From a virus, in IMG/VR virus record IMGVR_UViG_3300010885_013813, positions 1-28,423 of that record: a stretch of DNA of 28,423 nt. The stretch is one strand, 5' to 3'. A model generated the notes under the pieces. That model had not been told where the DNA came from and did no database searches. It saw nothing but the letters and a program-made list of their open reading frames with translations. Shown here piece by piece: positions 7,101 to 26,285 of the stretch. The position numbers and the translations under genes are program-made. The stretch's first letter is position 1, and every line of letters begins with the position of its first letter.

Positions 7101-10100
7101 CGATGGGCTAAATCGGACATCACAGCATTACAGTCACAAGTAAATAATCTAGAATATTACACATCACTAAGTTTGATGGAACAACACACAAATGCACTGC
7201 AAGTCCCAGATTCGAAGGGACTCAATAGATTTAAAAATGGAATATTGGTAGACACCTTTGCCGACTTTAGCGCAGCCGATACCTCAAACCCAGATTATTC
7301 TGCAAACATAAACATTAGAAAAGGTCAACTATACCCAATAACAGAAATAGACAATTATCAATTACACCACGTAGATGTTCTTAACTCATTCAGCACCCAC
7401 AAGGGCACCGATAATTATGCAGTAGATAGTCTGGGACATGGCACCACCAACATTTTCACACTACCATATAGCACAAATATACTTATTAATCAGCCGTTCG
7501 CTACGTCAGTAATATCCGCCAATCCATTTGATGTGATAACGTCTACAGGTGTCATGACTATTAACCCACCCATAGACAACTGGGTTAATAGCATAGAACC
7601 ACCATCAATAACTATCAGCACACCGCACCTACAGATGGCACAATATCCAGGTGCTATGAACTTAACTAATGCAGGAGACTTTGCGTCACTTGTTGGAACC
7701 ACAACAGCAACCAACCCATCACAGGGGGCGGTGACTCAATCATACATCAGTCAAACTGTCGGATTAACCACCGCCGAAGTATCAAAGGCGGTTTCCCAAG
7801 GACTTGTTACTAATAAAGGATATGTCACCAACTCTGCAGTAGCTCCATTTATAAGAGCGCAAGAACTTATCATAAGAGCTAAAGGACTAACGCACAACTC
7901 TCCAGTGTCATGTTGGTTCGATGGCACTAACGTTGACAAGTGGGTAACATCACCAAATGTTATCCTACTTAAAGATGTCACCGGAACATTCTACGATGAC
8001 AACATCATAGGATTCTACGAATCAAACATTAGTACATTCTTTCCTATTGGTAGAGTAGTTTCTACTACAGTAACTAGCAGCAACACCGTTACGTTATATG
8101 TGGCAACTACAATAAACCCACCACCAGAATCAACATCAACATTATTAATAAATGCATATTTCGATTCACATGGTAACTTTTTACCAAATGGGACAACAGG
8201 TTCAGGTAATGTGGTTTTACCTGCCGGGTCTGGTGGTGGATTACACGCAATCCACCACAATGGGAAAGTAACACACGTTGGCGGCGGTTATACTCAGGTA
8301 TTAAACCCTTTAACCGCCGCTGCTACAATATACAAATCACCATTAGTACCTACAGGTACACGTACAGCAAATGCGACAACTTGGGGTAAATATGGCTTCT
8401 CGGATTTCCTAAACCAGTATGGTGTATGGGACGCCATTCTCCCGCCAAATTCAAATGGTGGGACTTTTGCCGCATCACACAAAATTAATATAACTAAAGC
8501 AGGATCGTATTTAATAACAGCGGATTGCTATGGTTCGGCAACTATACAGGTGAACGGAACCACTGTACTGACACTACCCATGAAATATACGGGGACAGTA
8601 TATACATACGCAGTAACATTAGCCGCAGGTATTAATACAATAAGTTGGTCCGCAGTAAACACACAAACCCTAAACTACTCAACATCAAGTGCGACTAGAG
8701 GATACTCTTCATTTGCTCTCACATTAGGCCCAGTAACTAGCCAAGGAGCGGACGGTGATGAATTTACTGACCCTAATGAGGCGAGCGAAGGTGAGGTGTA
8801 TTTATTATTCAATACCGTCACTCCACCAAATTTATCATACACACCAGCAGCGGGCACTGAAACAGCAATGATCGGTGGCGGTTCGTATTATGAAAAAGTA
8901 ACAAAATTAATATTGGATTTTGATGCACTAACCGCAGCAAATACAATATATGTTGGAAGCACAATAACGGTTAAAGCGTTTAGCATAACTGGATACACAT
9001 ATGGTGCAATGTACATACCACCATTACCAAAATACGCTGGCGATGGTGATCCTGTATATAGCGCAAATTATGCTAGTGATGTCAAAAAGTGGAACGCCGC
9101 ATACGGCGTCGGAACACAACCACCAAAATACATCACGTCTACTGAATGGTTTCCTACTTTAATTACCGGATATGATAAAGCAACAAACACAATAACAGTA
9201 CAAACCCCTGTTGATATTAGTATAGGCATTAATACAATATTTGGTGGTGATATAACGTCAACATATACTATAGATGGAGTTGAGTTTAGTACAGCAAATG
9301 CTATAGCTAAGGGCAACGCAATTCCGCAAAAATCCACAGACGACCACGGCCAGTTTGTGGGCATATTCAACGTGCCCGGATCAAATTTCTACAACGGACA
9401 GCGAACATTCCGATTAGATAACAGGACTGATCCAATGTCACCAGATACGGCAACAACATATGCCGAGGCTATATTCACATCAGGAAATATTTCTGGAGTA
9501 GAGAGCCTATCCGCGTCAATCGACGCATCAGCAATACCAATAATCCCAGTCGCACAACAGTCATTGTCACCAACAGCAAACCCAAATGTTTCAACTTTAG
9601 ATGCGCTGGCCCAGTCATTTATAATAGATAAAAACACATACCCAAATGGGGTATTCGTTAGCTCGGTTGATCTATTCTTCCAGTCAAAAGATAAAGTCGC
9701 TGACATAAAAGTTTCTATAGTTGATACAATAAACGGAGTCCCTAATGGAAAATCATTACACTATTCGACCACAATACTGAAGCCTTCAGAGGTAGTTACA
9801 TCAAATGCACCACATTACCTAAGTTCAACAACAGCAACAACATTCAAATTCCAAGCACCAGTTTACATACAGCCTGGTATATTGTATGCGATAATGATAC
9901 AGTCATCATCAAAAAACTATACTCTATATTTTGGTGAACAAAACAAGACCATAGATGGTCTGTATAAGTCCACAGCACCAGCACAACCAGGTGGTGTCGT
10001 AACGGGAGTACCAAAGATTGGCGGTGCCCCATACATTGGTTCGTTGTTCGAGTCACAAAACTCAATCACATGGACACCAGACCAAACTAAAGATTTAATG

Positions 10101-11491: not shown

Positions 11492-13792
11492 ATGGCAAAT
11501 ACAATAAACATCCTACAATATACAAACACTTTTGGCGATTGGATTGTTAACACAAACGCAATGGCTAATGAAATCAATTATATTGGATCCCAAGCATGGA
11601 CAAAAGATTCCGGACTACTAACACTAAATGGAATACCATTGGGACTTCTTGTTAAAAATGACACCACAGTTGGTGGTAAATTATCAGTGACAGGGATAGG
11701 ATCGTCGGCAAACATTAGCAACAACCTATGGGTCGGCGGTCAATTAACACTAGCCAATTCCGGATTGAGTATCTCCACATATGGCACCGCAAACATTGGA
11801 AGCACACTAACAGCTAACGGGACTGCGAATGGTCTTATAGTAGCCAATAACACATTAATGTATGGAAACACAACCATTTATGGCATCGGGAATATACTAG
11901 GCAGTGGTAATGCACTAACCGTAGCAAATAATGTTGTAATCGGAGCAAACACAACAACAAACAACCTCACAGTTACTAGTCGTAGTAACAACAACATACT
12001 CAACGCAAATACACTCACAATAGCAACAAACACAACAACATCAAATTTGATTGTTACTAGTACAGCAAATGTGACTAGTGCGAATGTGGGTACTTTGGTA
12101 GTTACCGGAGCATTAACAATAACAGGGAATTATATTCAATCAGGTCCGACAACATACACATCACCAACATTCACACTAAACTCAGGCGCAGCTGCACAGA
12201 ATGCATCATACACCGTCAACAGATCAGCTGCCGGAGCAAACTCAGAAATACGATGGAACGAGTCTAGTTTGTATTGGGACATATTAGACGTGAATGCTAG
12301 TGGCACATATTCGAGAATAATGACCGCTAATATGATAAGCAGCTCTATCATATCAACAAGTACAACAACAATAGCATCATCAGCAGCGGCAAACACATTA
12401 AACAACTACATAAATTCAGCAAACACATGGGCACAAGGCAATGTTGGGTCAGCATTGTCACAAGCATTTGCTAATACAGGAGCTGGACTCAACGCAGCTA
12501 ATACATGGACACAAGCCAATGTTGGATCAGCATTGTCACAAGCAAAATCATACACTGACAGTAAATCAGGATTTACCAATAGTATGACATTTTCTAGTGA
12601 CGTTACAGTTGCCGGAAATTTAATAGTGAATGGAGCATCTGCATCATTTAACGTACAAAATATAATTGCAGTAGATAATAATATCACATTAGGCAACGTA
12701 GCAACACCAACAAATGTTACTGCCGATGGTGGTGGTGTTACTTTGATAGGCGCAACGAACAAAACACTTAATTATGACAACGCAAACACCGCATGGACAA
12801 GTTCTGAAAACGTTAATCTGTATACAGGAAAAGTTTATAAAATTGCGGGAACGACTGTATTATCAGGATCTACATTAGGTTCAGGTATTACCGCATCTAG
12901 TTTAACTAGCGTCGGTACCATATCATCAGGCACATGGTCCGGTTCATTTGGCACAGTATCGGGGGCTGCCTTAACATCATTAACTGCCGGTAATTTATTA
13001 GGAACTATCCCTAGTGCAGTATTAACAAATTCAACACACTACATTGGAACTACCGCAATTACATTAAGTCGAGCGACAGGTGCTCAGACATTAACCGGCG
13101 TTAATATTGATGGCACCGCAGGAAATACATCAGCATCACTAACAATAACTACCGGTGGCGCGGGTACAGCACCAGGCAGTACCTTTAATGGTGGAGCCGC
13201 AGTAACAATATCATATAATAGCATCGGAGCATCCCCGTTAGCAGGGTCGTCATCGTTAGTAACTACAGGTATTATAAGTACAGGAACATGGAACGCAGGT
13301 GTCATCGGTATTGCATATGGCGGCACAAACTCAACAGCAACAGCAACTGCAAATGGGATTGGTTATGGGACGGGAATTGCACATGCATATACAGCAAATT
13401 CAACATCAGCCGGTCAAGTATTAACAACAGTTGCTGCTGGTGGCATCCCATCATGGCAGTCTCAATTGACAACAACAAGTATCGCAAATACGTCAAATCT
13501 ACCAATAACAGTTAGTGCTGGATGTATGCATTACCAATCTAGCGTAACAGCACAAGCAGTCGCAATAACAATTAACAACCCAACAGGCACCGCAGTCGAT
13601 GGACAGAAATTAATTATAAGACTTAAGGATAATGGCGTGGTTCAAACTGTCACATGGCAATCATCATATAGAGCTATGGGTAGTTATCTCCCAGCATCAA
13701 CTGTAGTAGCATCTAAAACTACTTATGTTGCTTGTGTATACAATGGTGCAGATTCAGTGTGGGATGTAGTTTCCGCAACTACCCAGTTCTAA
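11492..13792 (+). CDS. Modular tail fibre-like protein (cassette copy 1, fibre gene)
   Basis: 766 residues, starting 3 bases after the upstream stop, with AAGG at 11478-11481. The N-terminus (NILQYTNTFGDWIVNTNAM) is the attachment segment typical of T4-like marine fibre proteins. After repetitive Asn/Thr/Gly-rich shaft sequence come SYTVNRSAAGANSEIRWNES (~247), a doubled ANTWxQxNVGSALSQA segment (~310-350), VDNNITLG with TADGGGVTLIG and TSSENVNLYTGKVYKIAG (~390-455), and a GGTNSTATATANGIGYGTG module (~610) ending GIPSWQS. The last ~65 residues (DGQKLIIRLKDNG, WQSSYRAMGSYLP, WDVVSATTQF) form a C-terminal cap shared with the product at 20437. A beta-rich trimeric fibre that contacts the host or carries the next gene's product is inferred. 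Confidence 0.9.
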   Translation: MANTINILQYTNTFGDWIVNTNAMANEINYIGSQAWTKDSGLLTLNGIPLGLLVKNDTTVGGKLSVTGIGSSANISNNLWVGGQLTLANSGLSISTYGTANIGSTLTANGTANGLIVANNTLMYGNTTIYGIGNILGSGNALTVANNVVIGANTTTNNLTVTSRSNNNILNANTLTIATNTTTSNLIVTSTANVTSANVGTLVVTGALTITGNYIQSGPTTYTSPTFTLNSGAAAQNASYTVNRSAAGANSEIRWNESSLYWDILDVNASGTYSRIMTANMISSSIISTSTTTIASSAAANTLNNYINSANTWAQGNVGSALSQAFANTGAGLNAANTWTQANVGSALSQAKSYTDSKSGFTNSMTFSSDVTVAGNLIVNGASASFNVQNIIAVDNNITLGNVATPTNVTADGGGVTLIGATNKTLNYDNANTAWTSSENVNLYTGKVYKIAGTTVLSGSTLGSGITASSLTSVGTISSGTWSGSFGTVSGAALTSLTAGNLLGTIPSAVLTNSTHYIGTTAITLSRATGAQTLTGVNIDGTAGNTSASLTITTGGAGTAPGSTFNGGAAVTISYNSIGASPLAGSSSLVTTGIISTGTWNAGVIGIAYGGTNSTATATANGIGYGTGIAHAYTANSTSAGQVLTTVAAGGIPSWQSQLTTTSIANTSNLPITVSAGCMHYQSSVTAQAVAITINNPTGTAVDGQKLIIRLKDNGVVQTVTWQSSYRAMGSYLPASTVVASKTTYVACVYNGADSVWDVVSATTQF
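12419..12544 (+). repeat. Internal 78-base-spaced duplication in fibre gene
   Basis: Bases 12419-12466 and 12497-12544 encode ANTWAQGNVGSALSQA and ANTWTQANVGSALSQA. Five of the 48 bases differ by direct comparison. The offset is 78 bases (26 codons), in frame. It lies in the shaft region and could be read as a coiled-coil or helix repeat. Confidence 0.85.
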
Positions 13793-13801
13793 TAGGAGAA
13801 C

Positions 13802-13843
13802 AATATGGCAGCAAGAACATTATATTGGGTTGGTGGTACCGGG
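13802..13843 (+). repeat. 42-base identical repeat, copy 1 (start of adhesin gene)
   Basis: Bases 13802-13843 are identical to 21163-21204. They cover the three bases before the ATG and the first 13 codons. The first mismatch is A at 13844 against T at 21205. Identity at synonymous sites marks recent shared ancestry or gene conversion. Confidence 0.95.
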
Positions 13844-16800
13844 ACTTGGGATACAACTACAACACATTGGAGTCTGTTGTCACAGGGGTTTGTTGCATCA
13901 TGCCCAACACCAACATCATTGGTTATAACTAGTGTAGCACCAACTGTCAACCTAGTAGCCGGCACTAAGGTTTACAACCAAATAAATGGACTGCTCGGAA
14001 CTATTGTTTCCGGGAGTGGATTGACTTACGTGATATCAGGAGGAGCCATAGCGGGATCGCAGCTGATGACCGCAGCAGTCACTGGTGCAGCTGTACCAAC
14101 GTCAATAGATACCGTAATCTTTGATGGTAATTCGTTTGGGTTTTTGCAATCTTCCTTCCTTAACATAGCGGGAACAACCACCGCAACCACATTAACACTA
14201 ACAGCCGATACGCACTTACCTGCTGGGGTTGCAATATACGATGGCGATGGTGCAGTGCTGGGTACTATCACAACCACAGGAACAGGAACCGTTTTTGCAC
14301 TTACCGGTGGGTCTTCTTCCACGATAAGATCAACGCTGACATCGTTGGATGCGGCAATGCCATATACAGTAACACATAGCATAGCATCGGCAGTTGCCTC
14401 CATTATTATGGATGGTCCAATAACTTTCGCAGGAACTGGCACATTAAATATTGCAAGTACACTCGGTGCTGGGTTAAGTATAGGCCAGTTCCGACAGGGA
14501 TCGACCCTCCCAATCTGGAACAAGACAGGAGCGGTCACATTCAGCGGCACTAATGTAACATATGATGCTATTATTAACACATTTCTATCACCAATTATTA
14601 TATCCGGTGCTACCACCGTTCTAGGTGGATCTGGTTGGTCATGTTCTGGTGGTTGGTCTGGTGGGTATACTGGACAACTACTTGGCTCTTACGGAACCGC
14701 AAATGCGTCAGCCAGCTCAGTCACATTAACTAGCGGAACCATTGACATAAGTGTTTACATCACATGTACCAATTATACACAGACAACAGGAACTAATAAT
14801 GGATTAGAAATTCGATGTTCCTCTCTCGGAGGAAATGTCACGTTAAATGGCGGAACATTAAATTCATCATTCATATATTGCGGAGCATTTGTTATGTCAG
14901 GAGCAACCAGTATTAATTCTGGTTATACTGATTGCTCAACGTATGTCCAAAATGCAGGAACTAGTAATTATTTTGATATGACTGGCGGCATTTTCGCATC
15001 AGGTGCGATTACCCACTTTGCCGGGTTAATTGATGTAGGACTAATGGATTGTAGTAATTACATAGCCACAGGCACAACAGCAGCGAGTCTGAATGGTACA
15101 AACATCAATATTAATGGAAATAACTCAACAGTGGTGGCTGCAACAAACCCACTATGGACAACCAATTCAGCACTATCAGCATCTATTTTTAACTATACAT
15201 ACATCGGCGCAGTAGGCACTAGAATTATCACAGTACAAAGTCCTGGTGGTGCTGCAGTAACTCATTCATTCGGGTCAGCTACTGACATTGTCAGTATAAC
15301 CACAGGATCAGTACTTTCCATTCTTGATCTGACTAATTTCACAGGAACAGTTGCCGGCGGAGATTTTTCATTAGATAACAGCTACAATAGTATTACGGCA
15401 GGGTGGGCAGGGACAATAACGCCGCCCACAATTTCACCAATAGGATGGACGAACACAGGAACAATCACATATATAGGGACAGGATCCACCTTCCAAGACA
15501 CCTTACGCGGAATAGGTGTTGGTAGTACCATGACAACAACAGGGATAATAACTAACCCAATTGTAGCACAATGTACAGGAAGTGGTTCTCTTGGGTTTTC
15601 TCCCTTGTCACCGTGCATCATAACTACTGGGAGTTTTACATTAATATCAGGGACAGTGATAAGCAATAATAATTTAGTCTGTTCATCATTCACCATTACC
15701 CCTAATGCACTAACTAGGTATGTAGATTTTAGCTCTGGTGGTATTACTGTAACTGGTGGCGGCACGTCAATATCAGTACCCACGACTAGCGCAAATCTTG
15801 TAAATTGCAGTGTTGCTTCAGGGTCGATAATTAATATTGCTAATAGCTCAGCCACATTAACGCTATCTACAGGAACTCAAGCACCAACATATAACATAGC
15901 CAATAATGTTTGCAGCAATATTTCATGTAGCATAAATCCACAGACATTCGCCAATTCGAGAATACAAGCGATATTCAACTGCACATCAAGGACACTTACA
16001 GCAAATACCATAATATTAAATAGCTCGAATATAGCAGTTGGTCAAATATATACCACAAGCACATCAACATCTTTTAATATAACCCCAAGCGCAGGCAATA
16101 TAACAGGATTACCAGGAGTAACAACACCAACCCAGCTTATGACAACAGGGACACGAGCATTAGTACAGGTGCCAGGTGCTCTTGGTGCTACGAATATGCG
16201 CAAGTTAGAAACAAACAGCATCACCATCAATACAGGCGATAATGTATACTACTCAGGACATTTAATTGGGAATGTCACTGCGGGCGGAACATACACATTA
16301 TCTATACCAATTAACGTAACTAACATATTTTATGCACTTTCTTCAGTTCTTGTAGACATCGTGTCGCCGACATATTTTTCGGGTAACGTTGTCACATCAT
16401 TCGTAAGCACATCCAGCATAACTGTACCAGTAAATTCAGCGATATATGACACATTGGGCACACTGGTTGGTAATATAACCACAGCAGGAACATACGTAGC
16501 AGCAACTCTTGTGCCGGTAGCAAATGGAATAACACGATCAGCACAAGTGCTTTCATATACCCCAACTGCAACAAATACCGTAAATCTAGTGTCTGGGCAT
16601 TATTATGGAGGATTGTACTTTTACAATTTCAGCGGACATGTCCCAAATATTACATCTACCATATGTGGGGATTTATTGCTAAGTCCATCGATGGTGTTTA
16701 TGTCCGGTGCGCAAGCAGGTGCAAATACATTAACATTTTCTGATAGTTTTAATGGACAGATGAGCATGATAACACCTAACGGACTAACAATAGACTGTCC

Positions 16801-17560
16801 AATAAACATTAAAGCTAATACAATGTCTACTATCTCATTAGGGTCGGATTTGATTATAGGGAGTACGAGAAATCTCTCACTAACATCAGGGAGTTTTTAT
16901 GATAGTGGATGGTCTATAAATGTAGGGAGTTTCTCGTCGACAGGAACTGCGACAAGATCAATAGGGTTTGGTGGGACTTGGTCCATTGCGGGGACAGGCG
17001 CTTGCTGGAACATATCAGGAACAGGAATAACTACTAGCTTCGTATATGCTGGCTCGAACGGAATGTCTACTGGTCATGAATATACTAATATTGTGTTGAC
17101 TGATTCCTCTACTGCAGGTAGAACTTTTGCCGGAAATAGCCTGCAGTACGGCACAGTACAGATAGGAACCACTCCAGGTGATGCAACAGCATCAATCACA
17201 ACATTCACAGGAAACAATAGTTTCTATAGTTTGATCAATAATAAGGCTTCAGGAACTATTAAATTTACGGCAGGATCAACCACGAATACTGCTCTTTTCC
17301 AGCTACAAGGTGCTACTATTACATCAGATACCACAGCAGTTCATTATTTAGTAAACAATAGTGCATTATATGTGCCACCTATTTCACTCAATTACAAAAA
17401 TGATTGGCTATGTGAACCAATAACCCTTTCATATAGCGCAGCATCATCTAACCCCAACACAGTAAAGTGCTTCGCGGGGGCGACTTCAACATTTGGAACA
17501 TCAGTAAGCGGGTGGATACATGGATACCCATCAACCGGTTCATTTTTTGATGTATTTTGA
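13805..17560 (+). CDS. Giant repeat-rich adhesin, MAARTLYWVGGTG family (cassette copy 1)
   Basis: 1251 residues with an AGGAG at 13794-13798 before the ATG. The N-terminus MAARTLYWVGGTGTWDTTTT is identical for 13 residues to the product at 21166. This YWVGGTG-W module occurs at the start of many phage and metagenomic surface proteins. The body is almost entirely Gly/Thr/Ser/Asn beta-sequence (parallel beta-helix or beta-sandwich repeats), with at least five copies of an approximately 50-residue repeat (consensus Y-D/N-x-x-G-x-x-x-G-x-I). The C-terminal ~200 residues (SGTGITTSF, RTFAGNSLQYGTVQIG, TIKFTAGSTTNTALFQLQG, HYLVNNS, then GWIHGYPSTGSFFDVF) form a conserved end module. There is no signal peptide or enzymatic motif I can see. 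By position and architecture it is a receptor-binding or spike-like appendage; this role is inferred. Confidence 0.87.
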   Translation: MAARTLYWVGGTGTWDTTTTHWSLLSQGFVASCPTPTSLVITSVAPTVNLVAGTKVYNQINGLLGTIVSGSGLTYVISGGAIAGSQLMTAAVTGAAVPTSIDTVIFDGNSFGFLQSSFLNIAGTTTATTLTLTADTHLPAGVAIYDGDGAVLGTITTTGTGTVFALTGGSSSTIRSTLTSLDAAMPYTVTHSIASAVASIIMDGPITFAGTGTLNIASTLGAGLSIGQFRQGSTLPIWNKTGAVTFSGTNVTYDAIINTFLSPIIISGATTVLGGSGWSCSGGWSGGYTGQLLGSYGTANASASSVTLTSGTIDISVYITCTNYTQTTGTNNGLEIRCSSLGGNVTLNGGTLNSSFIYCGAFVMSGATSINSGYTDCSTYVQNAGTSNYFDMTGGIFASGAITHFAGLIDVGLMDCSNYIATGTTAASLNGTNININGNNSTVVAATNPLWTTNSALSASIFNYTYIGAVGTRIITVQSPGGAAVTHSFGSATDIVSITTGSVLSILDLTNFTGTVAGGDFSLDNSYNSITAGWAGTITPPTISPIGWTNTGTITYIGTGSTFQDTLRGIGVGSTMTTTGIITNPIVAQCTGSGSLGFSPLSPCIITTGSFTLISGTVISNNNLVCSSFTITPNALTRYVDFSSGGITVTGGGTSISVPTTSANLVNCSVASGSIINIANSSATLTLSTGTQAPTYNIANNVCSNISCSINPQTFANSRIQAIFNCTSRTLTANTIILNSSNIAVGQIYTTSTSTSFNITPSAGNITGLPGVTTPTQLMTTGTRALVQVPGALGATNMRKLETNSITINTGDNVYYSGHLIGNVTAGGTYTLSIPINVTNIFYALSSVLVDIVSPTYFSGNVVTSFVSTSSITVPVNSAIYDTLGTLVGNITTAGTYVAATLVPVANGITRSAQVLSYTPTATNTVNLVSGHYYGGLYFYNFSGHVPNITSTICGDLLLSPSMVFMSGAQAGANTLTFSDSFNGQMSMITPNGLTIDCPINIKANTMSTISLGSDLIIGSTRNLSLTSGSFYDSGWSINVGSFSSTGTATRSIGFGGTWSIAGTGACWNISGTGITTSFVYAGSNGMSTGHEYTNIVLTDSSTAGRTFAGNSLQYGTVQIGTTPGDATASITTFTGNNSFYSLINNKASGTIKFTAGSTTNTALFQLQGATITSDTTAVHYLVNNSALYVPPISLNYKNDWLCEPITLSYSAASSNPNTVKCFAGATSTFGTSVSGWIHGYPSTGSFFDVF
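13950..16560 (+). repeat. Five dispersed copies of a ~50-residue repeat domain
   Basis: Approximate copy positions are 13950-14090 (AGTKVYNQINGLLGTIVSGS), 14211-14390 (GVAIYDGDGAVLGTITTTG), 15994-16190 (NTIILNSSNIAVGQIYTTS), 16230-16370 (GDNVYYSGHLIGNVTAGG) and 16425-16560 (NSAIYDTLGTLVGNITTAG). The shared pattern is a hydrophobic-Y/L-D/N-x-x-G-x-x-x-G-x-I/V-x-x-x-G hairpin followed by beta strands. The boundaries are by eye. Confidence 0.65.
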
Positions 17561-17572
17561 ATATTACTATTA

Positions 17573-17580
17573 TATAAATA
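17573..17580 (+). promoter_or_regulatory. T4-type late promoter (TATAAATA)
   Basis: An exact TATAAATA octamer lies in one of the two longest intergenic gaps (17561-17609), 29 bases before the ATG at 17610. T4-like late promoters consist of this -10 element read by the gp55-type sigma factor. A second near match (TATAAATG) lies at 17586-17593. Initiation would be expected roughly 6-7 bases downstream of the octamer, leaving a short leader that includes AAGGA at 17598-17602 as ribosome site. About two chance matches per strand are expected in a window this A+T-rich, but the intergenic placement favours function. Confidence 0.65.
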
Positions 17581-17609
17581 TATAATATAAATGCCATAAG
17601 GAATATTAC

Positions 17610-17948
17610 ATGTCAGCAGCATACTCGAATCTTTTTATGGACCAGGGATCAACATTCCAAACATCAATAGTATTAAATGATGCGTCGGGTAATGCGTATA
17701 ATTTGACTAATGTGGTTGTACATAGTACAATTAGAAAATCATATACTTCAGCAAATGCCACTGCTGTATTCCAGACTACATTAAATACAGGTAGTGGCAC
17801 TGTAACATTAGATCTTGGTGCCAACACCACGGCCAACATTGCTAGTGGTAGATATGTGTATGATGCTATGTTAACTAATAACCTAACTCAGGTATCCACC
17901 AGAATATTAGAAGGTATAATACAAGTTTCACCTTCGGTCACCAGATAA
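17610..17948 (+). CDS. Small BppU-N-like structural protein
   Basis: 112 residues, with AAGGA at 17598-17602. The sequence MSAAYSNLFMDQGSTFQTSI, then NLTNVVVHSTIRKSYTS, SGTVTLDLGANTTANIASGR and YVYDAMLTNN with RILEGIIQVSPSVTR, follows the fold pattern of BppU N-terminal-like domains: a small beta-sandwich with the set dqG-tf, l-A-iRk-y and GrYvYDve motifs. Related small proteins occur in fibre regions of T4-like marine phages. It is first in a short run of genes behind the late promoter motif and is followed two bases later by the gene at 17951. An adaptor or baseplate-peripheral role is inferred from the family resemblance. Confidence 0.82.
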   Translation: MSAAYSNLFMDQGSTFQTSIVLNDASGNAYNLTNVVVHSTIRKSYTSANATAVFQTTLNTGSGTVTLDLGANTTANIASGRYVYDAMLTNNLTQVSTRILEGIIQVSPSVTR

Positions 17949-17950
17949 CT

Positions 17951-18256
17951 ATGCCGACTGTAACGATAACCCAACCAGCCATAATAACAGTTAGGGTTGG
18001 TGGTGGAATAATACCTAGAGTTACTGAAATAACCACCGTATCAACGTCACCACCAATAGTCAAAGTTGATAATGGCGCACAACAAAGAGTATCTTCTGTT
18101 AATTCGTCTATAAATTCATTAAGCCACCTAAGTGATGTTAATATGATTGGGGCCATAGATGGGTCTGTTGTTGTTTATCAAGCAAACACAAATAATTTTG
18201 TAGTAGAAACACTAACATCAGTTTTAAATACCATCGTGGATGGTGGAGCATTCTAA
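17951..18256 (+). CDS. Small hypothetical structural protein with DGGAF C-terminus
   Basis: 101 residues, starting two bases after the previous stop with no strong ribosome site, so translational coupling is likely. The N-terminal half is beta-rich (TVTITQPAIITVRVGGG). The C-terminal half has LSHLSDVNMIGAIDGSVVVY followed by QANTNNFVVETL, the 'L-x-x-LsDV... dGdvLvY... t-n-k-f-v' pattern common in phage fibre and collar proteins, and the chain ends VDGGAF. That ending is shared in type (DGG-x-F) with the products at 18269 and 19996. The precise function is unknown; virion association is inferred from the motif and the neighbourhood. Confidence 0.8.
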   Translation: MPTVTITQPAIITVRVGGGIIPRVTEITTVSTSPPIVKVDNGAQQRVSSVNSSINSLSHLSDVNMIGAIDGSVVVYQANTNNFVVETLTSVLNTIVDGGAF

Positions 18257-18268
18257 TAAGGAAAAACT

Positions 18269-19963
18269 ATGGCTAACACTAAAATACTAATAAAAAGATC
18301 GACAACCACAACCACACCAGCCACTAGTTCATTACAGGCGGGTGAACTCGCATATTCATATCTATCTAATACAGCATTCATTGGCAACTCTGATGGCATT
18401 GGCGTACTCAAGATTGGCGGAGCATCATACACAGCAGCTATAGATGCAGCAACAACGTCTAATACAGCATCAACAATAGTAAAACGAGACGTTAATGGTT
18501 CATTTTCAGGAAACCTAATTGGTAACGCCACTAGTTCATCTTCACTGAATGCCCCACAAAACTTCTCTATCTCTGGTGGCGACATAGCAGCAGCAACAGT
18601 AGCATTCTCCGGAAACAATGCAGTTGCACTTAATGCAAGTTTAAATGCTGTGCCTGGACTCACTGCTGGATCTGTCGGTTCATCGTCATCAATACCAGTA
18701 ATAGCATATGGTGCTAATGGTAGAATTCTTTCCGTATCATCTGCTTCTATTGGAACAGCAACAGTAACAGTATCAGGAAATACCGGAACAGATACATTCG
18801 GAAGTACATTAACATTTCAGGGCGGTGGTACTGGTATAACCACAATAGTATCGGGTGCGGTCGGTGCCCCAATAGTAACGATCAATACAGATAACACAGT
18901 ATTACGCGCTAATACTTCAGTTGGTACACAAATAATAAACTCAGAATTATCCATACCATCTAACAATGTATCTATTGGAGGCACATTAACGGTATCCAAC
19001 CTGAATGTTTCAGGTGCTATTATTCAAACTAACGCAACATCAACGATGAACGTTAACGACCCGATAATGTATCTTGCCGCTAATAATTCAGGGAATGCTG
19101 TTGATATAGGCATGGTTGGTCACTTTGTTGGGCAAGGTACTTCCACATATTCACACTACCAACATACAGGATTTGTTCGTGATTTTAATGATAACAAGTG
19201 GAAATTGTTCAGTAACGTATCATCAGAACCAACAACAACCGTCGTGTTTGATGCGACCACATTATATGATGTCATAAAAACTGGTGGACTTGACGCATCA
19301 GGTGGCAACATCACTTCAGCCAACTCAATTACAGCGGTATCGTTAGCATTAACAACAGCACTGCCGGTAGCTTCTGGTGGTATAGGTATTAACACATTAC
19401 CAGCAAATCAGATATTGCTAGGTTCTGGTACTAATGCAATTCAGGCTCTAGCTAACGTAACGGCGATATCAGCAACATCAATAACTAACAACCAAACGCT
19501 CTCAGCATTAACAACCGATACGTATGGTCGGGTATTAACATTCACAACGCAAGCAATTGGCGGATTAACTGTATCCCAAGGTGGCACAGGCAATACAGCA
19601 TTTACGGCAGGGTCTATTTTAGTAGGCAATGGCACCGGCGCATTATCTGTATTAGCAAATACAACATATACCGCAACAGGATCTGCCGCATATAACAACA
19701 CAATAACATCACTAACAGTTGATGCGTATGGACGACTAACCGCAGCAACATATTCAGCGATTTCTGGGTTAACTGTTACTCAAGGTGGTACCGGACTTAC
19801 TACTGCAACTACCAATGGAATTACATTTGGTAATGGTGCCAGTGCTATTGGTGTTACTGCCGCCGCAGGTACTGCTGACCAGACGTTTTCTACTCAAATA
19901 CTAACAGCAACTAATGCAGGTGTTCCTATTTGGGCATCGGCTCTCGATGGCGGCCAATTCTAG
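18269..19963 (+). CDS. Tail fibre-like protein with Mtd-type N-terminus and three 68-residue repeats
   Basis: 564 residues, with AAGGA before the ATG. Residues 1-~60 (MANTKILIKRST, LQAGELAYSYLS, DGIGVLKIGG) match the pattern of the Mtd N-terminal-like segment (IKRst...GELa...G.l.IG) used to plug fibres into baseplates. A middle block (~250-330) with DPIMYLAANNSGNAVDIGMV, QHTGFVRDFNDNKWKLFSNV and EPTTTVVFD is a widespread fibre module in marine phages. From residue 365 three copies of a 68-residue unit occur (PVASGGIG, TVSQGGTG, TVTQGGTG), the last ending GVPIWASALDGGQF. The GGTG module is also seen in the product at 11492. A trimeric appendage protein is inferred; the attachment partner is not visible. 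Confidence 0.88.
   Translation: MANTKILIKRSTTTTTPATSSLQAGELAYSYLSNTAFIGNSDGIGVLKIGGASYTAAIDAATTSNTASTIVKRDVNGSFSGNLIGNATSSSSLNAPQNFSISGGDIAAATVAFSGNNAVALNASLNAVPGLTAGSVGSSSSIPVIAYGANGRILSVSSASIGTATVTVSGNTGTDTFGSTLTFQGGGTGITTIVSGAVGAPIVTINTDNTVLRANTSVGTQIINSELSIPSNNVSIGGTLTVSNLNVSGAIIQTNATSTMNVNDPIMYLAANNSGNAVDIGMVGHFVGQGTSTYSHYQHTGFVRDFNDNKWKLFSNVSSEPTTTVVFDATTLYDVIKTGGLDASGGNITSANSITAVSLALTTALPVASGGIGINTLPANQILLGSGTNAIQALANVTAISATSITNNQTLSALTTDTYGRVLTFTTQAIGGLTVSQGGTGNTAFTAGSILVGNGTGALSVLANTTYTATGSAAYNNTITSLTVDAYGRLTAATYSAISGLTVTQGGTGLTTATTNGITFGNGASAIGVTAAAGTADQTFSTQILTATNAGVPIWASALDGGQF
19361..19960 (+). repeat. Three in-frame 204-base protein repeats
   Basis: Repeat units begin at 19361, 19565 and 19769, exactly 204 bases apart (68 codons). 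The last runs about 192 bases to the stop. Each has L-[TP]-V-x-x-GG-[TI]-G, then an L/I-x-x-GNG or GSG step and a Y/T-rich stretch with DxYGRxLT. They are diverged at the base level, so this is an old repeat in a fibre shaft rather than a recent slip. Confidence 0.85.
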
Positions 19964-19973
19964 GAACATATAT

Positions 19974-19997
19974 ATTTGATTTATAGGAATATCAAAT
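19974..19997 (+). promoter_or_regulatory. Possible small hairpin over the start of the gene at 19996
   Basis: ATTTGAT (19974-19980) and ATCAAAT (19991-19997) are perfect inverted complements. They enclose a 10-base loop that displays the ribosome-site bases TAGGA and place part of the start codon in the stem. The stem has one G-C pair, so stability is doubtful. Chance is possible in A+T-rich DNA. Confidence 0.3.
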
Positions 19998-20433
19998 GCC
20001 CGAAAAGTACATGAATTATTATGTTGAATTGTTGAGTGCTACCGTAAATGATATCGTTCTTAGAAACATCTCGCTCCAAGCAAATGCAAAGATTAGTGAT
20101 GACGTTATTGCTGAACAACAACAACATGTACAAAATGCAATAGAACAACAAAACACCATCAATGATCTCAATAGTCAAATATCCACAATGCAACAAAGCA
20201 TAACAGCGGTCGAAGAGTCCAAACATCAGCTAGCACATATAGACACATTCAGAAGTGAATTGATTAAAGCTAGAAAAGAAAATGATGATCTACATGACTA
20301 CTATGACAGACTAGTTACTGAGCTTAATAGTCAAATAACATACTTGGAATTAACACCTGCACAACGAAAGAAGATAAACAAAATAAATACGCACGAGTTA
20401 TCACCAATCGTAAAAGATGGCGGGGCGTTCTAA
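19996..20433 (+). CDS. Coiled-coil virion-associated protein with DGGAF C-terminus
   Basis: 145 residues. The N-terminus MPEKYMNYYVELLSATVND followed by VLRNISLQANAKISDDV is a signature I recognise in a family of coiled-coil proteins from T4-like marine phages. Residues ~40-120 are rich in Gln, Glu, Lys and Asn with heptad spacing and include QLAHIDTFRSELIKARKEND. The part after that has LNSQITYLELTPAQRKKINK, and the chain ends VKDGGAF. A TAGGA ribosome site at 19984-19988 precedes the ATG. Unlike its Gly/Thr-rich neighbours it is clearly helical, so it may be an assembly factor, clamp or trimerising partner for fibres. That role is inferred; the family's function is not known to me. Confidence 0.85.
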   Translation: MPEKYMNYYVELLSATVNDIVLRNISLQANAKISDDVIAEQQQHVQNAIEQQNTINDLNSQISTMQQSITAVEESKHQLAHIDTFRSELIKARKENDDLHDYYDRLVTELNSQITYLELTPAQRKKINKINTHELSPIVKDGGAF

Positions 20434-20436
20434 TAT

Positions 20437-21156
20437 ATGGCAAATACCTCAGTATTAATAAAAAGATCGTCAGTCACTGGAAGAACACCATCGTCTTTGG
20501 TTTTAGGGGAACTGGCGATAAACTATACCGATGGTAAATTGTTTTATAGTAATGGCACTAATGTATTATCAATATCCGGCGGAGGTTCATCATCAAGCTC
20601 CTTCTCTACTATTAGTGATGGCACGAACTTAATAGTAGCGACAACACCAACAAACACACTACTGATATCTGGGTCTAATGGCATTAGGGTATTGGGAGAT
20701 GGTACCGCAAAATCTATTACTATTGGGCTACCAGCACCAGGAGCATCTGGTAACGTACTGACATCAACAGGGAGTACATGGCAATCATCAGCCGTTAGTG
20801 GTGGAGGCGGATCTTCAACCGTAACAATCAGCCCAGCTTTTGTTGCAGCAACTTCAACGCTAACCCCAGCAGTAGGGACGACAGGTGCTCAGATATTAAC
20901 AGGAGTAACCACACAAAATCAACTTATTAACATACTGACACCAACAGGAACCCCACAAGAAGGACAGAAACTTGTAATTAGAATTAAAGATAGTGCACCA
21001 GCGGTAGGGTGGGGTATTATCTGGTCGGCGAGCTATACAGCAATTGGATGCTACTTACCGGGAATTACTGTACCAAGTAAAACAATGTATATAGGATGTA
21101 TGTATAATTCAGGAACAACAAGTTGGGATGTTGTATCTGTAACTATTGGATTTTAG
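20437..21156 (+). CDS. Short fibre protein with C-terminal cap (cassette copy 2, fibre gene)
   Basis: 239 residues, starting three bases after the previous stop. The N-terminus MANTSVLIKRSSVTGR with LVLGELAINYTDGKLFYSNG is the Mtd-like attachment segment, and the 14 bases TAATAAAAAGATCG are shared with the start of the gene at 18269. A short Gly/Ser linker follows. The last ~68 residues (EGQKLVIRIKD, WSASYTAIGCYLPG, MYIGCMYNSGTTSWDVVSVT, ending IGF) match the C-terminal cap of the 766-residue product at 11492, with most of the intervening shaft missing. It is therefore a minimal fibre: plug plus cap. It precedes the second MAARTLYWVGGTG adhesin just as the longer fibre precedes the first, which suggests that the two products of each pair work together. 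Confidence 0.88.
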   Translation: MANTSVLIKRSSVTGRTPSSLVLGELAINYTDGKLFYSNGTNVLSISGGGSSSSSFSTISDGTNLIVATTPTNTLLISGSNGIRVLGDGTAKSITIGLPAPGASGNVLTSTGSTWQSSAVSGGGGSSTVTISPAFVAATSTLTPAVGTTGAQILTGVTTQNQLINILTPTGTPQEGQKLVIRIKDSAPAVGWGIIWSASYTAIGCYLPGITVPSKTMYIGCMYNSGTTSWDVVSVTIGF

Positions 21157-21162
21157 TGAGGT

Positions 21163-21204
21163 AATATGGCAGCAAGAACATTATATTGGGTTGGTGGTAC
21201 CGGG
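21163..21204 (+). repeat. 42-base identical repeat, copy 2 (start of adhesin gene)
   Basis: Partner of 13802-13843. The identity ends at 21205, after which the two genes share only protein-level similarity (SWDLTTTHWS against TWDTTTTHWS). Confidence 0.95.
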
Positions 21205-24200
21205 TCTTGGGACCTCACCACGACACATTGGTCACTAAGTTCCGGTGGTGCTGGTGGGGTGGCAGCACCAACGACAACAGATTTTATAAATTTTGATATA
21301 AATTCTAACGGGATGGGTGGTGGCGCCACAGCATATACTGTAACCAGAACAGCAACAATAACACCAGTATCTGTTGATATGGATGAAAATATCACATTTG
21401 CCGGAACTTCAGGATTCTCGTTCGCATCAGGGGCAGATGGTATTCGTGTCGGACAAGCTACCCAAGCTGGACACATTCTTCCCGCTTATACAAATACCGG
21501 TACTATTGCAGTATTAGGACTCGGCACAAATGTATATGGGGGAGGGACGTTGTCAATAACAACATCCAATATACCAAGCTGCTCTGTCACATTTTCAGGA
21601 AACCTCTCGGTTATTGGTGGGGTAGGTATAACAACCACAGGAACTTTAACACAATCTAGTTCGGGCAGCACAAACAACTGCAACTATATGATATGCGGTA
21701 TTTATATACATTCAGGTGGGTTCAATAACTCTGGAGTAACGACAGTGTCTGGTGCATGTACACACACAGGGGGTGTCATTTACTGCTATTTAACGTGTGG
21801 TAGTTATATAGCAGCCAGCGGGAGTGGAACTCTTTTATCATCACAAACCATAATAACAGGATCTGGTATATCCGTAGTCACCATTAGCTCAACCACATGG
21901 AACACGAACATGGGGGCGGCTATACCAGGTGGTTTTGTGTTGGTTGGGGGGACGCCAATGCTGGTGAGTTTTTATTACACATATGCCGGAAATGTTGGAA
22001 CAAGGACTATAGTTTCAACGGCCACAAATGCGGTATGGACAAATCATTTTTTTGGAACGCCAGCAAACCCTGGCGGGGCAGCAGATACTATTGCATTTAG
22101 CGGAACTGTAGCTATGAAGTCCGGGGGTTTTGATTTTAGTGGATGTGGTATGATTACAGTTACAGGGACATGTGCATTCACTCTGGATAGCACTAATGCA
22201 CCAGGCAACGTTGTAGCAACAAGACCGATGAACTGGACACATAGTGGTGTCCTTACTTATTTAAATACGCTAACTGATGCGACCCCATTTAATAGTGGGA
22301 CAACACAGGGTGACTTTTGGTGCATTATACCAAACTCAATCATAGTTAATTTACCATCGTTTGTGAATAACGTGCAAATTATCGCACTCAACGTAAGGTC
22401 AACAGGACTACTAACATTAACGCAAGGACAAATATCAACCAATTATGGCGAATATTGCCAATTTGGTACTTTTATAGTAACATCTAATTCCAATTATAGA
22501 TGGATCGATTTTATGGCTTCGGGATTAACACTCACAGGAGCAGGACTTAATGCAAATATTGTTCCAGCAACTCAAACCAATTACGCAGTCACCAAGTCTT
22601 CCATTATAAATGTCGCTACCGGTGGTGCAGCAGCAACCACTATTACACCAGGAACCCAACAACTAACACAAAGTTTATTAGGGACCAGTTTAGTAGATAC
22701 ACTAACTATCCTTAATGATATTTTCACAATAATCCCACCAAACGCTAGAATTATCGATGCCACTAACTCCGATATAGGATATATAACAAGTATCATGAAT
22801 GGCTTTAACTGGTATTACCCATCATATCGGTTTGATTATGAATATGTCGGGGGAATGTCAAGAGCACAACAAACAATGGCGGCAGTGATGCCACTAACAG
22901 GGTCGTCCGATGGGACTAATTTGACCATAACAAGTCCTGGCTATATTGTAGCCGCAAACAATTTACTATTATCATCTACTCACACCCCCGTAGGCACTAT
23001 TACTGCTGGTGGACTAGTCAGTAGCTCAGTTTTAGTTAGTATATCATCAGCCATCGCGTCAGCAACACAAACAATGTATGAGGCTTTTCCAATTACTGCC
23101 ACATCTAATGCAACGTATTTGACTGTATTAACATCACCAAACGGTACTGTGAATTTCAAATCTGGACAGTATGTATATAACACAACATCTGGCACATTAG
23201 TTGGTACTATTATCAATAGTGGCAGCGCTTATATCAACCAAACAATAGCAATAAGTGGCGGCGTGAATAATGTAACGAGCATATCCGCAGCACTAATTAT
23301 ACAAACTCTGCCATTAGCAGCTGTGTCAGTTGGCTCTGCACTTAGTGTATCTGGAGCTGGTGCTACGTTAACCACCGGGCAACAAATAAAAGATACCGTT
23401 GGTAATCTTATCGGAACTATCCAATCAGGTGGAACAGGTACTACGTTCGCACTCAATGTTGGAGCATCAATAATTGGCTCATCAAATTTAAGAGCAATAT
23501 GCGCAGATTTCATCGGATCAACTATTGGTAAAATATATATACAAACGCCGGCACTTACTTATTTAGAGGCAGATTCCCCAGTAATGGATGCAAATTATAA
23601 TGTACTCGGCTATGTTTATTCACCAGGAGTACCATTATTATATTGGAATAACTTTTATATTACAACAATCCCATGTAGTGCTTCACCTGTCCTGTCATCA
23701 GCGTTTGCAAGTTCTTCTACATTAGCATTGTCTACTCTGCAATCATTGATAACCAAAGTGCCCACCACAATGCTGACATCTTCTAATTTTGATTGGAATG
23801 TGATGCCTAGTCAGTCATTTGTCGGCAAAGTAGTAACTACATTGACCGGAGCAACTAGCATAGCAACTAGCGCAAATACACGAGGAATAATTAATTCTAG
23901 TAATGTTATTGTTGGTGTGTTTGATACAACATCAACCGGCACATTGTCTGCGACACTAACATCGGCAATAGCAAATAGCACAACACAAACTTACACTGTA
24001 TGTGATGTGTTCCATGTCGTAAGTTCTTCCGGCAATAATATTACAATTAACGATACAACAACACACACTACCCTGGTGGCAGGAACCAAAATATATAACT
24101 CCGTTGGGCAGTATATAGCAAACATCATAAGTGGTAGCGGCACTAATTATATAATGAATGGACCATTCTACAGTGGGGGGTTTCCTATAGCGGCAGTACC

Positions 24201-25461
24201 CCCAATCGCAGTAACAACTAGTGGGATAATATCCGCAACTTTGAATATAATATCACCAGCTGGCGGTATTGTTGTACCGACAAATGCACAGGTTTATGAC
24301 TACTATAATACACATATAGGCACCATATCAGGTGCGGCATCGAGCACATCATTCCCATTGCTCCCATACTACCTACCATTAGATGAATCATATACCACAA
24401 GTGTCGGATATGATGCATATGATCCAATAACTACTGGACCAGCACAAACAAGACCAATACAACAAATGTCAGCTACTATCACAAATGCTTACACATTAAC
24501 AATTACCACAAGCAGCCAGCTTGGGTCTTTGAGTTTCAACAGATTCGTAGGTGCTCTTTCTGGACTAGCGACAGAATCATTTACGGTAAATGGGTCTTTG
24601 TCATTATGTAAAAATATGGGATGGTCAACTACTGGCACATTATATATGGCTAATGATAATAATACAAATTCTATATCTACCAATGGCACTACACTTGGTT
24701 GCCCGGTAGTTTTCAACACACCATTTAGCCAAGCATGGGGAACATGGGTAACTGTTGGAAACTTCACAACATCACAAATGGTAACACTATCTGGGGGGGA
24801 TTTAATTATATCCGGATTTACTTTTTCTTGCCCCACATTACAAATTACCGGATCTACTAGATGTAGTCTACAGTGGGGACAGGCATACTCAGTTACTGGA
24901 CAGAATACATCGATACTTAGTTTAACTGGTTCCGGTGTATGTTTAAGTACTCCTAGCACTAATTTTTCATCAATAGGTTTATGGGGGCAAATCAATTTAG
25001 ATAATAACACAACAACAACGAGAACAATTAATGGAGGTTCCGGAAACTATCCGGGGATACAAATAGGACCTACCGGCAGTATGACCAATTCAATAACCGT
25101 AATAAATGGTGGATCGTATCAAGACATTTGGTCACCAAAAATAGGCGCACACACCGTTCAGTTCACCGCAGGGACAACTTCATATTTTACTAAATGGAAT
25201 TTGTCGGGTACTTCCGGAAACCCGGTGACAATATCATCAACAACAGCATCTTATCATTATTTGGTTGGTATTGGTATGAATGAATGTAATGCTGACTATT
25301 TAAATATTTCGTGGAGTATCGCAATGTGGAATAATACGGGGGACCCAAGATATCATAAAACTTGGTTTGCAGGACCAGCCAACCATTCATCAAAAGATAT
25401 TAATACCAGTGGGTGGATACTCACTTACCCAAATAAAGGATCAATGTTGGATGTATTTTAA
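21166..25461 (+). CDS. Giant repeat-rich adhesin, MAARTLYWVGGTG family (cassette copy 2)
   Basis: 1431 residues, with GAGG before the ATG at 21157-21165. A paralogue of the product at 13805: the first 13 residues are identical, and both share in order a Y-T-Y-x-G-x-V-G-TR-I block (~265), long Gly/Thr/Ser beta-sequence, a FTAGTTSYFTKWNLSGTSGN type block with HYLVGIGM, and a final W-x-x-x-P-x-x-GSMLDVF (GWILTYPNKGSMLDVF). The last ~60 residues include the KTWFAGPANHS pattern common at adhesin ends. The middle (~525-1080) holds about eight copies of the ~50-residue Y-D/N-x-x-G-x-x-x-G-x-I repeat, against five in the other paralogue. There is no visible catalytic motif. A host-contact spike or fibre tip is inferred. 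Confidence 0.87.
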   Translation: MAARTLYWVGGTGSWDLTTTHWSLSSGGAGGVAAPTTTDFINFDINSNGMGGGATAYTVTRTATITPVSVDMDENITFAGTSGFSFASGADGIRVGQATQAGHILPAYTNTGTIAVLGLGTNVYGGGTLSITTSNIPSCSVTFSGNLSVIGGVGITTTGTLTQSSSGSTNNCNYMICGIYIHSGGFNNSGVTTVSGACTHTGGVIYCYLTCGSYIAASGSGTLLSSQTIITGSGISVVTISSTTWNTNMGAAIPGGFVLVGGTPMLVSFYYTYAGNVGTRTIVSTATNAVWTNHFFGTPANPGGAADTIAFSGTVAMKSGGFDFSGCGMITVTGTCAFTLDSTNAPGNVVATRPMNWTHSGVLTYLNTLTDATPFNSGTTQGDFWCIIPNSIIVNLPSFVNNVQIIALNVRSTGLLTLTQGQISTNYGEYCQFGTFIVTSNSNYRWIDFMASGLTLTGAGLNANIVPATQTNYAVTKSSIINVATGGAAATTITPGTQQLTQSLLGTSLVDTLTILNDIFTIIPPNARIIDATNSDIGYITSIMNGFNWYYPSYRFDYEYVGGMSRAQQTMAAVMPLTGSSDGTNLTITSPGYIVAANNLLLSSTHTPVGTITAGGLVSSSVLVSISSAIASATQTMYEAFPITATSNATYLTVLTSPNGTVNFKSGQYVYNTTSGTLVGTIINSGSAYINQTIAISGGVNNVTSISAALIIQTLPLAAVSVGSALSVSGAGATLTTGQQIKDTVGNLIGTIQSGGTGTTFALNVGASIIGSSNLRAICADFIGSTIGKIYIQTPALTYLEADSPVMDANYNVLGYVYSPGVPLLYWNNFYITTIPCSASPVLSSAFASSSTLALSTLQSLITKVPTTMLTSSNFDWNVMPSQSFVGKVVTTLTGATSIATSANTRGIINSSNVIVGVFDTTSTGTLSATLTSAIANSTTQTYTVCDVFHVVSSSGNNITINDTTTHTTLVAGTKIYNSVGQYIANIISGSGTNYIMNGPFYSGGFPIAAVPPIAVTTSGIISATLNIISPAGGIVVPTNAQVYDYYNTHIGTISGAASSTSFPLLPYYLPLDESYTTSVGYDAYDPITTGPAQTRPIQQMSATITNAYTLTITTSSQLGSLSFNRFVGALSGLATESFTVNGSLSLCKNMGWSTTGTLYMANDNNTNSISTNGTTLGCPVVFNTPFSQAWGTWVTVGNFTTSQMVTLSGGDLIISGFTFSCPTLQITGSTRCSLQWGQAYSVTGQNTSILSLTGSGVCLSTPSTNFSSIGLWGQINLDNNTTTTRTINGGSGNYPGIQIGPTGSMTNSITVINGGSYQDIWSPKIGAHTVQFTAGTTSYFTKWNLSGTSGNPVTISSTTASYHYLVGIGMNECNADYLNISWSIAMWNNTGDPRYHKTWFAGPANHSSKDINTSGWILTYPNKGSMLDVF
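22735..24410 (+). repeat. Eight-copy array of the ~50-residue repeat domain
   Basis: Approximate copies: 22735-22900 (NARIIDATNSDIGYITS), 22951-23090 (NNLLLSSTHTPVGTITAGG), 23153-23330 (GQYVYNTTSGTLVGTIINSG), 23371-23520 (GQQIKDTVGNLIGTIQSGG), 23566-23700 (DSPVMDANYNVLGYVYSPG), 23870-24010 (TRGIINSSNVIVGVFDTTS), 24073-24230 (GTKIYNSVGQYIANIISGS) and 24273-24410 (NAQVYDYYNTHIGTISGAA). They are near-contiguous here, with spacing of about 130-220 bases, whereas in the paralogue they are scattered in two groups. Confidence 0.65.
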
Positions 25462-25511: not shown

Positions 25512-26285
25512 ATGGCAACGATCAGTAGTAGAGAAGATTTTAAGAATTACTGTCTAAGAAGACTTGGTGCTCCTGTCATTGAAATAAATGTGGACGAAGA
25601 GCAAATTGAAGATCGAATAGATGATGCACTCCAGTACTGGACGGATACGCATTTTGATGGTATGCAGAAAGTATACTACATTAAACAAATACAGCAATCA
25701 GATATCGACAATAAATTTCTTGATCTGAGTCAATCTAAAGATGCACTTGGTAACCCAATGGAAATCATTGGTGTTACACGAATATTTCCAATATCAGATT
25801 CACAATCTACCATTAATATGTTCGACCTTAGATATCAACTTAGATTGAATGAATTGTACGATTTCACATCTACATCATATATCAACTATACTATGACTAT
25901 GCAGCATTTGCGTGATCTTGAGATAATGTTTACTGGTGAAGTTTTTATACGTTTCCAGAGACATATGCAAAAGTTGTTCATTGATTGGTCATGGGGTAAA
26001 CAAGATTGTCCAGTGGGTACTGTTGTTATAGCTGAATGTTATGCAGCAATTAATCCAGATGTGTACAAGGGAGTATGGTCTGACCGTTGGCTGAAAGAAT
26101 ATGCCACAGCATTAATAAAGAGAACTTGGGGCACTAATATGTCTAAGTTCGAAGGGTTACAATTACCTGGTGGTGTTAGTCTTAATGGCACTAAAATGTA
26201 TGACGAAGCACTAGTTGAGATTGAAAGATTAGAGCGAGAAATGGAAATGAACTATGGTGCTCCTTTAGATTGGTACACAAATTAG
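25512..26285 (+). CDS. gp13: Neck (head completion) protein gp13
   Basis: 257 residues against 309 in T4. The N-terminus SREDFKNYCLRRLGAPVI followed by INVDEEQIEDRIDDALQYW is a clear match to T4 gp13 (REDFK..CLRRLG.PVI.INVD...DRIDDALQY). Downstream landmarks include WSDRWLKEYATALIKRTWG (~195-215) and a C-terminal helix EALVEIERLEREMEMNYG, both typical of the family. In T4, gp13 forms a ring of the neck beneath the portal and, with gp14, makes the head competent to join the tail. It sits in T4 order before gp14 and gp15. An AGAG lies before the ATG. The homologue is shorter than T4's, as is common in marine T4-like phages as I know them. Confidence 0.95.
   Translation: MATISSREDFKNYCLRRLGAPVIEINVDEEQIEDRIDDALQYWTDTHFDGMQKVYYIKQIQQSDIDNKFLDLSQSKDALGNPMEIIGVTRIFPISDSQSTINMFDLRYQLRLNELYDFTSTSYINYTMTMQHLRDLEIMFTGEVFIRFQRHMQKLFIDWSWGKQDCPVGTVVIAECYAAINPDVYKGVWSDRWLKEYATALIKRTWGTNMSKFEGLQLPGGVSLNGTKMYDEALVEIERLEREMEMNYGAPLDWYTN

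Follow-up and report, generated by a model that had tools for sequence, protein, structure and literature searches.

Two fibre and adhesin gene pairs in a T4-like structural block

We analyzed IMG/VR fragment IMGVR_UViG_3300010885_013813, a 28,423-base stretch of DNA referred to here in full as the window. It covers a structural block of a T4-superfamily myovirus, with a gp13-type neck gene and T4-like structural gene order, and its source is a freshwater T4-like virus of bacteria. The fibre genes lie directly upstream of the neck gene, in synteny with the T4-like methylophage Melnitz and Caulobacter phage Cr30, and the order of small genes and fibre genes is the same in Melnitz. Unlike the window, Melnitz and Cr30 have neither the fibre cap nor the YWVGG adhesin start described below at the ends of those fibre genes that were read. 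The genes of the region are as follows.

11492..13792, + strand: fibre 1 (766 aa; ORF), with site-1 anchor, repetitive shaft and C-terminal cap
13805..17560, + strand: adhesin 1 (1251 aa), YWVGG family, N-terminal MAARTLYWVGGTGTWD..THWS, C-terminal GSFFDVF; homologous to adhesin 2
17610..18256, + strand: two small conserved genes between the fibre sites, 112 aa (match to PHROG 1084/3304, L-shaped-fibre assembly) and 101 aa
18269..19963, + strand: fibre 3 (564 aa), resident, without cap; orthologues 55% (G002) and 44% (G003) identical
19996..20433, + strand: coiled-coil protein (145 aa), resident; orthologues at 56% and 35%
20437..21156, + strand: fibre 2 (239 aa; ORF), with site-2 anchor and cap
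21166..25461, + strand: adhesin 2 (1431 aa; ORF), YWVGG family; homologous to adhesin 1
25512..26285, + strand: neck protein, T4 gp13 type (phrog_211, E 1.3e-39), the conserved right border of site 2

The original prediction described two gene pairs with the same order and a shared fibre cap, joined across fewer than 15 bases. Both pairs (11492–13792 with 13805–17560, and 20437–21156 with 21166–25461) are located exactly there, with gaps of 12 nt in the first and 9 nt in the second. The neck protein has relatives in 2,378 phage records and is 94% identical in the sister phage G002. Genes between the two fibre sites are orthologous and in unchanged order in the sister phages, the 112-aa gene having orthologues in G002 and G003 and the 101-aa gene in G003.

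Several features of the assemblies were recorded alongside. The right end of the window (28243–28422) consists of perfect 66-nt tandem repeats (LQANDGITLASSKLYTDGANTF), and contig L009 stops in this array too, probably because the assembly broke there. The homologue in G002 of the 2,379-aa gene at 4131–11270 is present as two ORFs (L270 reverse strand, about 12200). Near fibre site 2 of G002 lies a 168-aa ORF resembling an HNH-type endonuclease (L212 8261–8767).

Resident anchors carry related caps

Each fibre could be divided into an N-terminal anchor and a C-terminal cap.

11492..11791, + strand: site-1 anchor at the N-terminus of fibre 1 (MANTINILQYTNTFGDWIVNTNAMANEIN), with an orthologue in the corresponding position of G002
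13526..13789, + strand: fibre 1 C-terminal cap, PHROG 3030 (E 4.5e-16)
20437..20724, + strand: site-2 anchor, fibre 2 N-terminus (MANTSVLIKRSSVTGRTPSSLVLGELAINYTDGKLFYS); orthologous N-termini 52% (G002) and 49% (G003) at the same site
20902..21153, + strand: fibre 2 C-terminal cap, PHROG 3030 (E 7.4e-11)

The N-termini of fibre 1 and fibre 2 are unrelated to each other and instead match fibres at the corresponding site of sister phages. Residues 1–314 of fibre 1 match the site-1 fibre of G002 (s_fib1, 37.5%; L270 reverse strand 14612–17530), the distal end of which is unlike that of fibre 1. A single-protein search of IMG/VR and cultured phages with the site-1 anchor matched a near-identical contig alone, and the G002 homologue was located by synteny. 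Residues 1–117 of fibre 2 match the site-2 fibres of G002 and G003, where this N-terminus again carries other distal ends.

Related phages were compared for one or two cassettes, as the original prediction had proposed. In G002 the anchors are site-matched, the distal domains of the two sites differ from those of the window, and its 65-kb contig has no YWVGG start. In G003, site 2 runs through further fibres to a cap fibre and a 3,092-aa YWVGG protein directly before the neck gene. Because site-matched anchors bear other distal ends in these phages, the anchors appear to be resident and the tips exchanged. Both window fibres are composites of a site-specific anchor and a module-type distal end.

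In contrast to the anchors, the caps are related, and both match the PHROG 3030 profile at the fibre C-terminus. No function is assigned to this family; we place it at the end of a fibre whose gene is followed by an adhesin gene. The fibre 1 cap is predicted to be a compact all-beta domain (AF2 pLDDT 87.6). In BFVD, numerous tail fibre proteins and minor tail proteins carry it at their ends; the PDB gave no significant match.

The adhesins are diverged homologues

The adhesins have the following features, the repeats having been located by iterated HMM searches.

13934..14044, + strand: adhesin 1 internal repeat of about 40 aa (LVAGTKVYNQINGLLGTIVSGSG)
14198–14311 and 16217–16306, with weaker 15845–15925 and 16436–16498: further copies of the repeat in adhesin 1
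16469..17557, + strand: adhesin 1 C-terminal domain, the family-wide beta-rich repeat, with hundreds of domain matches in YWVGG proteins
23146–23235, 23353–23463, 24055–24165 and 24280–24333: repeats of about 40 aa in adhesin 2
24385..25458, + strand: adhesin 2 C-terminal domain

We define the YWVGG adhesin family by a YWVGG[TS]GxW..WS N-terminus, a beta-rich C-terminal repeat and a hydrophobic F-rich end, all of which were found here. The original prediction held that the adhesins had diverged widely and that their middles had been swapped. Divergence between the proteins is indeed large, but the middles align at 27–30% identity (68 bits, versus at most 27.7 for shuffles). Rather than exchanged segments, they are homologues that have diverged and gained small internal repeats. 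Among the fetched ORFs, the repeat profile is strong in adhesins 1 and 2 alone; related inserts occupy the same N-terminal place as the adhesin 1 repeat in L137, L153 and L198.

Searches of Pfam, PHROGs and NCBIfam returned no known adhesin, enzyme or lectin family for YWVGG proteins, and sequence searches of the PDB returned no match. The adhesin 1 C-terminal domain is predicted to be beta-rich (AF2 pLDDT 71.6). Against PDB folds the C-terminal model gave no significant hit (best E 0.9), in a list composed mostly of beta-helices. A direct tblastn search of cultured phages with the adhesins found no match.

A 42-nt identity points to recent copying at the adhesin starts

The adhesin genes begin with an identical stretch of DNA.

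13802..13843, + strand: exact 42-nt repeat, copy 1, comprising AAT and the first 13 codons of adhesin 1
21163..21204, + strand: exact 42-nt repeat, copy 2, at the adhesin 2 start

As the original prediction reported, the identity is exact. Both copies are flanked on each side by mismatches, with an approximate match reaching 69 nt at 90%. No exact direct repeat to the left of the right-end tandem array is longer, and the longest repeat in 100 Markov shuffles averaged 15 and reached at most 19. Assembly artefact was rejected as its source, since a second contig, IMGVR_UViG_3300009151_000177, also contains both copies.

Protein constraint does not account for the identity. Given the same residues and this phage's codon usage, agreement at all 12 non-Met codons has a probability of 4.7e-6; past codon 13, residues common to both adhesins are mostly on different codons. 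When this protein module was compared between phages in 3,475 pairs, positions with a shared residue had the same codon at a frequency of 0.37, and no identical run was longer than 27 nt. The 42-nt identity is therefore beyond protein constraint and private to this genome. Because the codon agreement exceeds chance and the cross-phage pairs show nothing comparable, we conclude that recent copying inside this genome produced the identity. The tract is short and ends abruptly between diverged paralogues, as gene conversion would leave it.

The original prediction had allowed that the 42 bases might instead recur in unrelated genes as a common module start. At the protein level such a start does recur, in at least 120 stretches of an IMG/VR scan, but at the DNA level it does not. 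We also considered whether the 42 nt are a selected DNA or RNA element, such as a translation start or recombination site, rather than a product of copying. An onset 3 nt ahead of the start codon and a sharp stop at codon 13 would fit such an element. The bases are not kept by other phages with the module, as the cross-phage codon identities and run lengths show, and on these pairs we rejected both a common start and a DNA element; a selected element is highly improbable.

The cap and adhesin recur as a pair in other phages and prophages

The cap and YWVGG pair is a widespread, uncharacterised two-gene fibre tip. Among the matches listed, a cap fibre lay within 1.5 kb upstream in 31 of 80 N-terminal YWVGG cases. 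In an independent sample chosen by cap, YWVGG was next in 34 of 76, and others had motif variants (RFWVGG, RYWILG) or alternative second genes, some of them glycine-rich. In L334, L315, L360, L289 and L216 the cap fibre is followed by other second genes, of a glycine-rich SGTTWTVP type or a MAISFISAGTQ type. The position after the cap fibre is thus a swappable slot.

Most phages have a small gene (MKIDFEF...DALHLPDDH...) between cap and adhesin, which is absent from both window pairs. Its product (MKIDFEFxTxxGxFxDALHLPDDHxxTxxEIxAMKQQRxDNWIAxITAPP), encoded between cap fibre and YWVGG gene in L117, L148, L153, L201, L273 and others, has no PHROG match and a borderline match to DUF2673. The five matches in bacterial genomes are surrounded by tail genes of phages or prophages, two of them directly follow a cap fibre, and the pair occurs in the prophage-like loci L279 and L281. 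A count with a pattern that misses some codons found a second N-terminal YWVGG start in none of 50 other YWVGG-carrying records, most of them fragments; two copies per genome therefore look unusual.

One isolate, the Methylophilaceae siphovirus P19250A, was reached via the cap. Its host is Methylopumilus planktonicus (PMC7678222). As in the window, a cap fibre (APC43905; phrog_3030 E 3.8e-21) is followed, 22 nt downstream, by a MADRYWVGGTGTW...NFFFMF protein (APC43906). Unlike the window, P19250A is a siphovirus with a single copy, placed after host-specificity protein J, and the C-terminal half of its adhesin is rich in glycine (weak PF21722 match). APC43906 (KX815270, L277 5257–8034) is annotated as a ‘PE family protein’; it is a probable adhesin of the YWVGG family next to a cap fibre.

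Origin of the two modules

The original prediction proposed that a complete fibre and adhesin cassette was duplicated as a unit, its ends conserved and its middles swapped. Part of this is supported: a common origin of the caps and adhesins, and recent copying of DNA over the 42 nt. Identical order, the same joint and the 42-nt identity all fit the proposal. The fibre N-termini are unrelated, however, each anchor being related to site-matched fibres of sister phages, and the adhesin middles are homologous rather than swapped. Full-length homology of both genes at both sites is thus lacking, and duplication of the whole cassette is very unlikely; it fails for the fibre half, and its adhesin half is taken into the explanation that we prefer. 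The related units are the tip modules of cap and adhesin, not whole cassettes.

Phylogenetic trees paired the two window copies in three separate segments. The caps are sisters (95/84; SH-aLRT 91 with 98 rows), as are the adhesin N-termini (99/89) and C-termini (SH-aLRT 87). Branches in these trees are long (1.3–1.7 changes per site for the C-terminal domain, 0.8–0.9 for the fibre 2 cap), so attraction or similar base composition could partly underlie the sister pairing, and sampling of this phage's relatives is thin.

We consider the best explanation, at a probability of roughly 60%, to be that a tip module was transferred long ago between the two fibre sites, that the copies diverged and that the adhesin start was recently converted, with the module forming a gp38-like docking tip. 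The two fibre sites of the T4-like structural block would each have kept a resident anchor and would both bear distally a travelling two-gene module, in which the cap is followed by a YWVGG adhesin with its own gene. Recombination, either in this genome or in that of a close ancestor, most likely copied one module to the second site, and strong divergence of the two copies would have followed. Gene conversion may later have replaced the first 13 codons in one adhesin with those of the other. The direction and timing of module copying we infer.

Because branches are long and sampling is thin, the main rival is that the two modules were captured independently from one environmental pool, with conversion at the adhesin start alone and no duplication here. 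The module is widespread and swappable, and the copies are as far apart in protein sequence as the 27–30% identity of their middles. Caps from outside the window are closer to the fibre 1 cap (59%) than the fibre 2 cap is, and the adhesin N-termini have outside relatives at similar identity. Against two captures, all three tree segments still group the window copies, the 40-aa repeat profile is strong in these two adhesins alone among the fetched ORFs, and both copies lack the small gene usual elsewhere. We regard double capture as possible but the less probable account, and favor transfer between the sites.

A putative docking tip resembling gp37 and gp38

In phages of the T2/S16 type, a separate gp38 protein sits on the tip of the gp37 fibre and presents variable loops presumed to bind the receptor (PMC6851490; PMC12892980). 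For S16, this attachment to the gp37 tip is made by conserved gp38 tryptophans (PMC6851490). The window is similar in that each adhesin is encoded by a separate gene directly downstream of a fibre gene, and both adhesins combine a conserved N-terminus with a variable body. They differ from gp38 in being much longer (1251 and 1431 aa) and in occupying two fibre sites. No gp38 match was found in Pfam or PHROGs for either adhesin, and no glycine-rich sandwich was recognised.

Based on gene order, the conserved aromatic N-terminus and the variable body, a T2/S16-like docking logic without detectable homology seems plausible. The cap would end the fibre, the adhesin N-terminus (YWVGGxGxW..TxxW) would dock on it, and the long beta-rich body with its inserted repeats would contact the host. 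Strong co-variation of cap and adhesin was rejected: across phages, the cap and the adhesin N-terminus show weak joint inheritance (Mantel r 0.18, p 0.03), less than would demonstrate a tight lock-and-key.

Strain variation drew attention to adhesin 2. Compared with co-occurring strain contigs (L007, L009), all nine differences in adhesin 2 were nonsynonymous, in a comparison of two contigs from one metagenome with few changes; adhesin 1 had none. Adhesin 2 held 9 of the 16 strain differences within 17% of the compared sequence, while five of the remaining seven were synonymous. Because all nine changes alter the protein and adhesin 1 has none, these data suggest that adhesin 2 is a contact protein under diversifying selection. 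Since all of these changes are nonsynonymous, a diversity-generating retroelement was considered as the source of variation and set aside, as the changes are not adenine-specific. In one metagenome, the assembly breaks inside this gene (window 21166–25461).

YWVGG proteins are long and repetitive and belong to no recognised enzyme or lectin family, and might accordingly be read as structural decoration or depolymerase-like shaft proteins rather than receptor-binding tips. Their recurrent place directly after fibre caps and after host-specificity protein J, together with the exclusively nonsynonymous changes in adhesin 2, argues against this reading, which we consider unlikely. We infer that the YWVGG adhesins contact the receptor; the YWVGG protein is probably the receptor-binding component, and this phage would carry two host-contact pairs, as originally predicted.

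Implications

To our knowledge, the receptor-binding proteins of most environmental phages are not recognisable from sequence. With a PHROG 3030 cap followed by a YWVGG start as a signature, the gene likely to contact the host could be named in many uncultured phages and in prophages, and also in one isolate, P19250A, with a misannotated adhesin. More tentatively, cap and YWVGG may form a general, undescribed plug-in receptor-binding tip, mobile among unrelated tailed phages (T4-like, siphoviral and prophage) and socketing onto different anchors. Where it occupies two sites, as here, conversion at the docking segment may let either adhesin fit either fibre type even as adhesin 2 diversifies. 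Two copies with a DNA-identical start would illustrate how a phage could diversify two tips yet keep them interchangeable.
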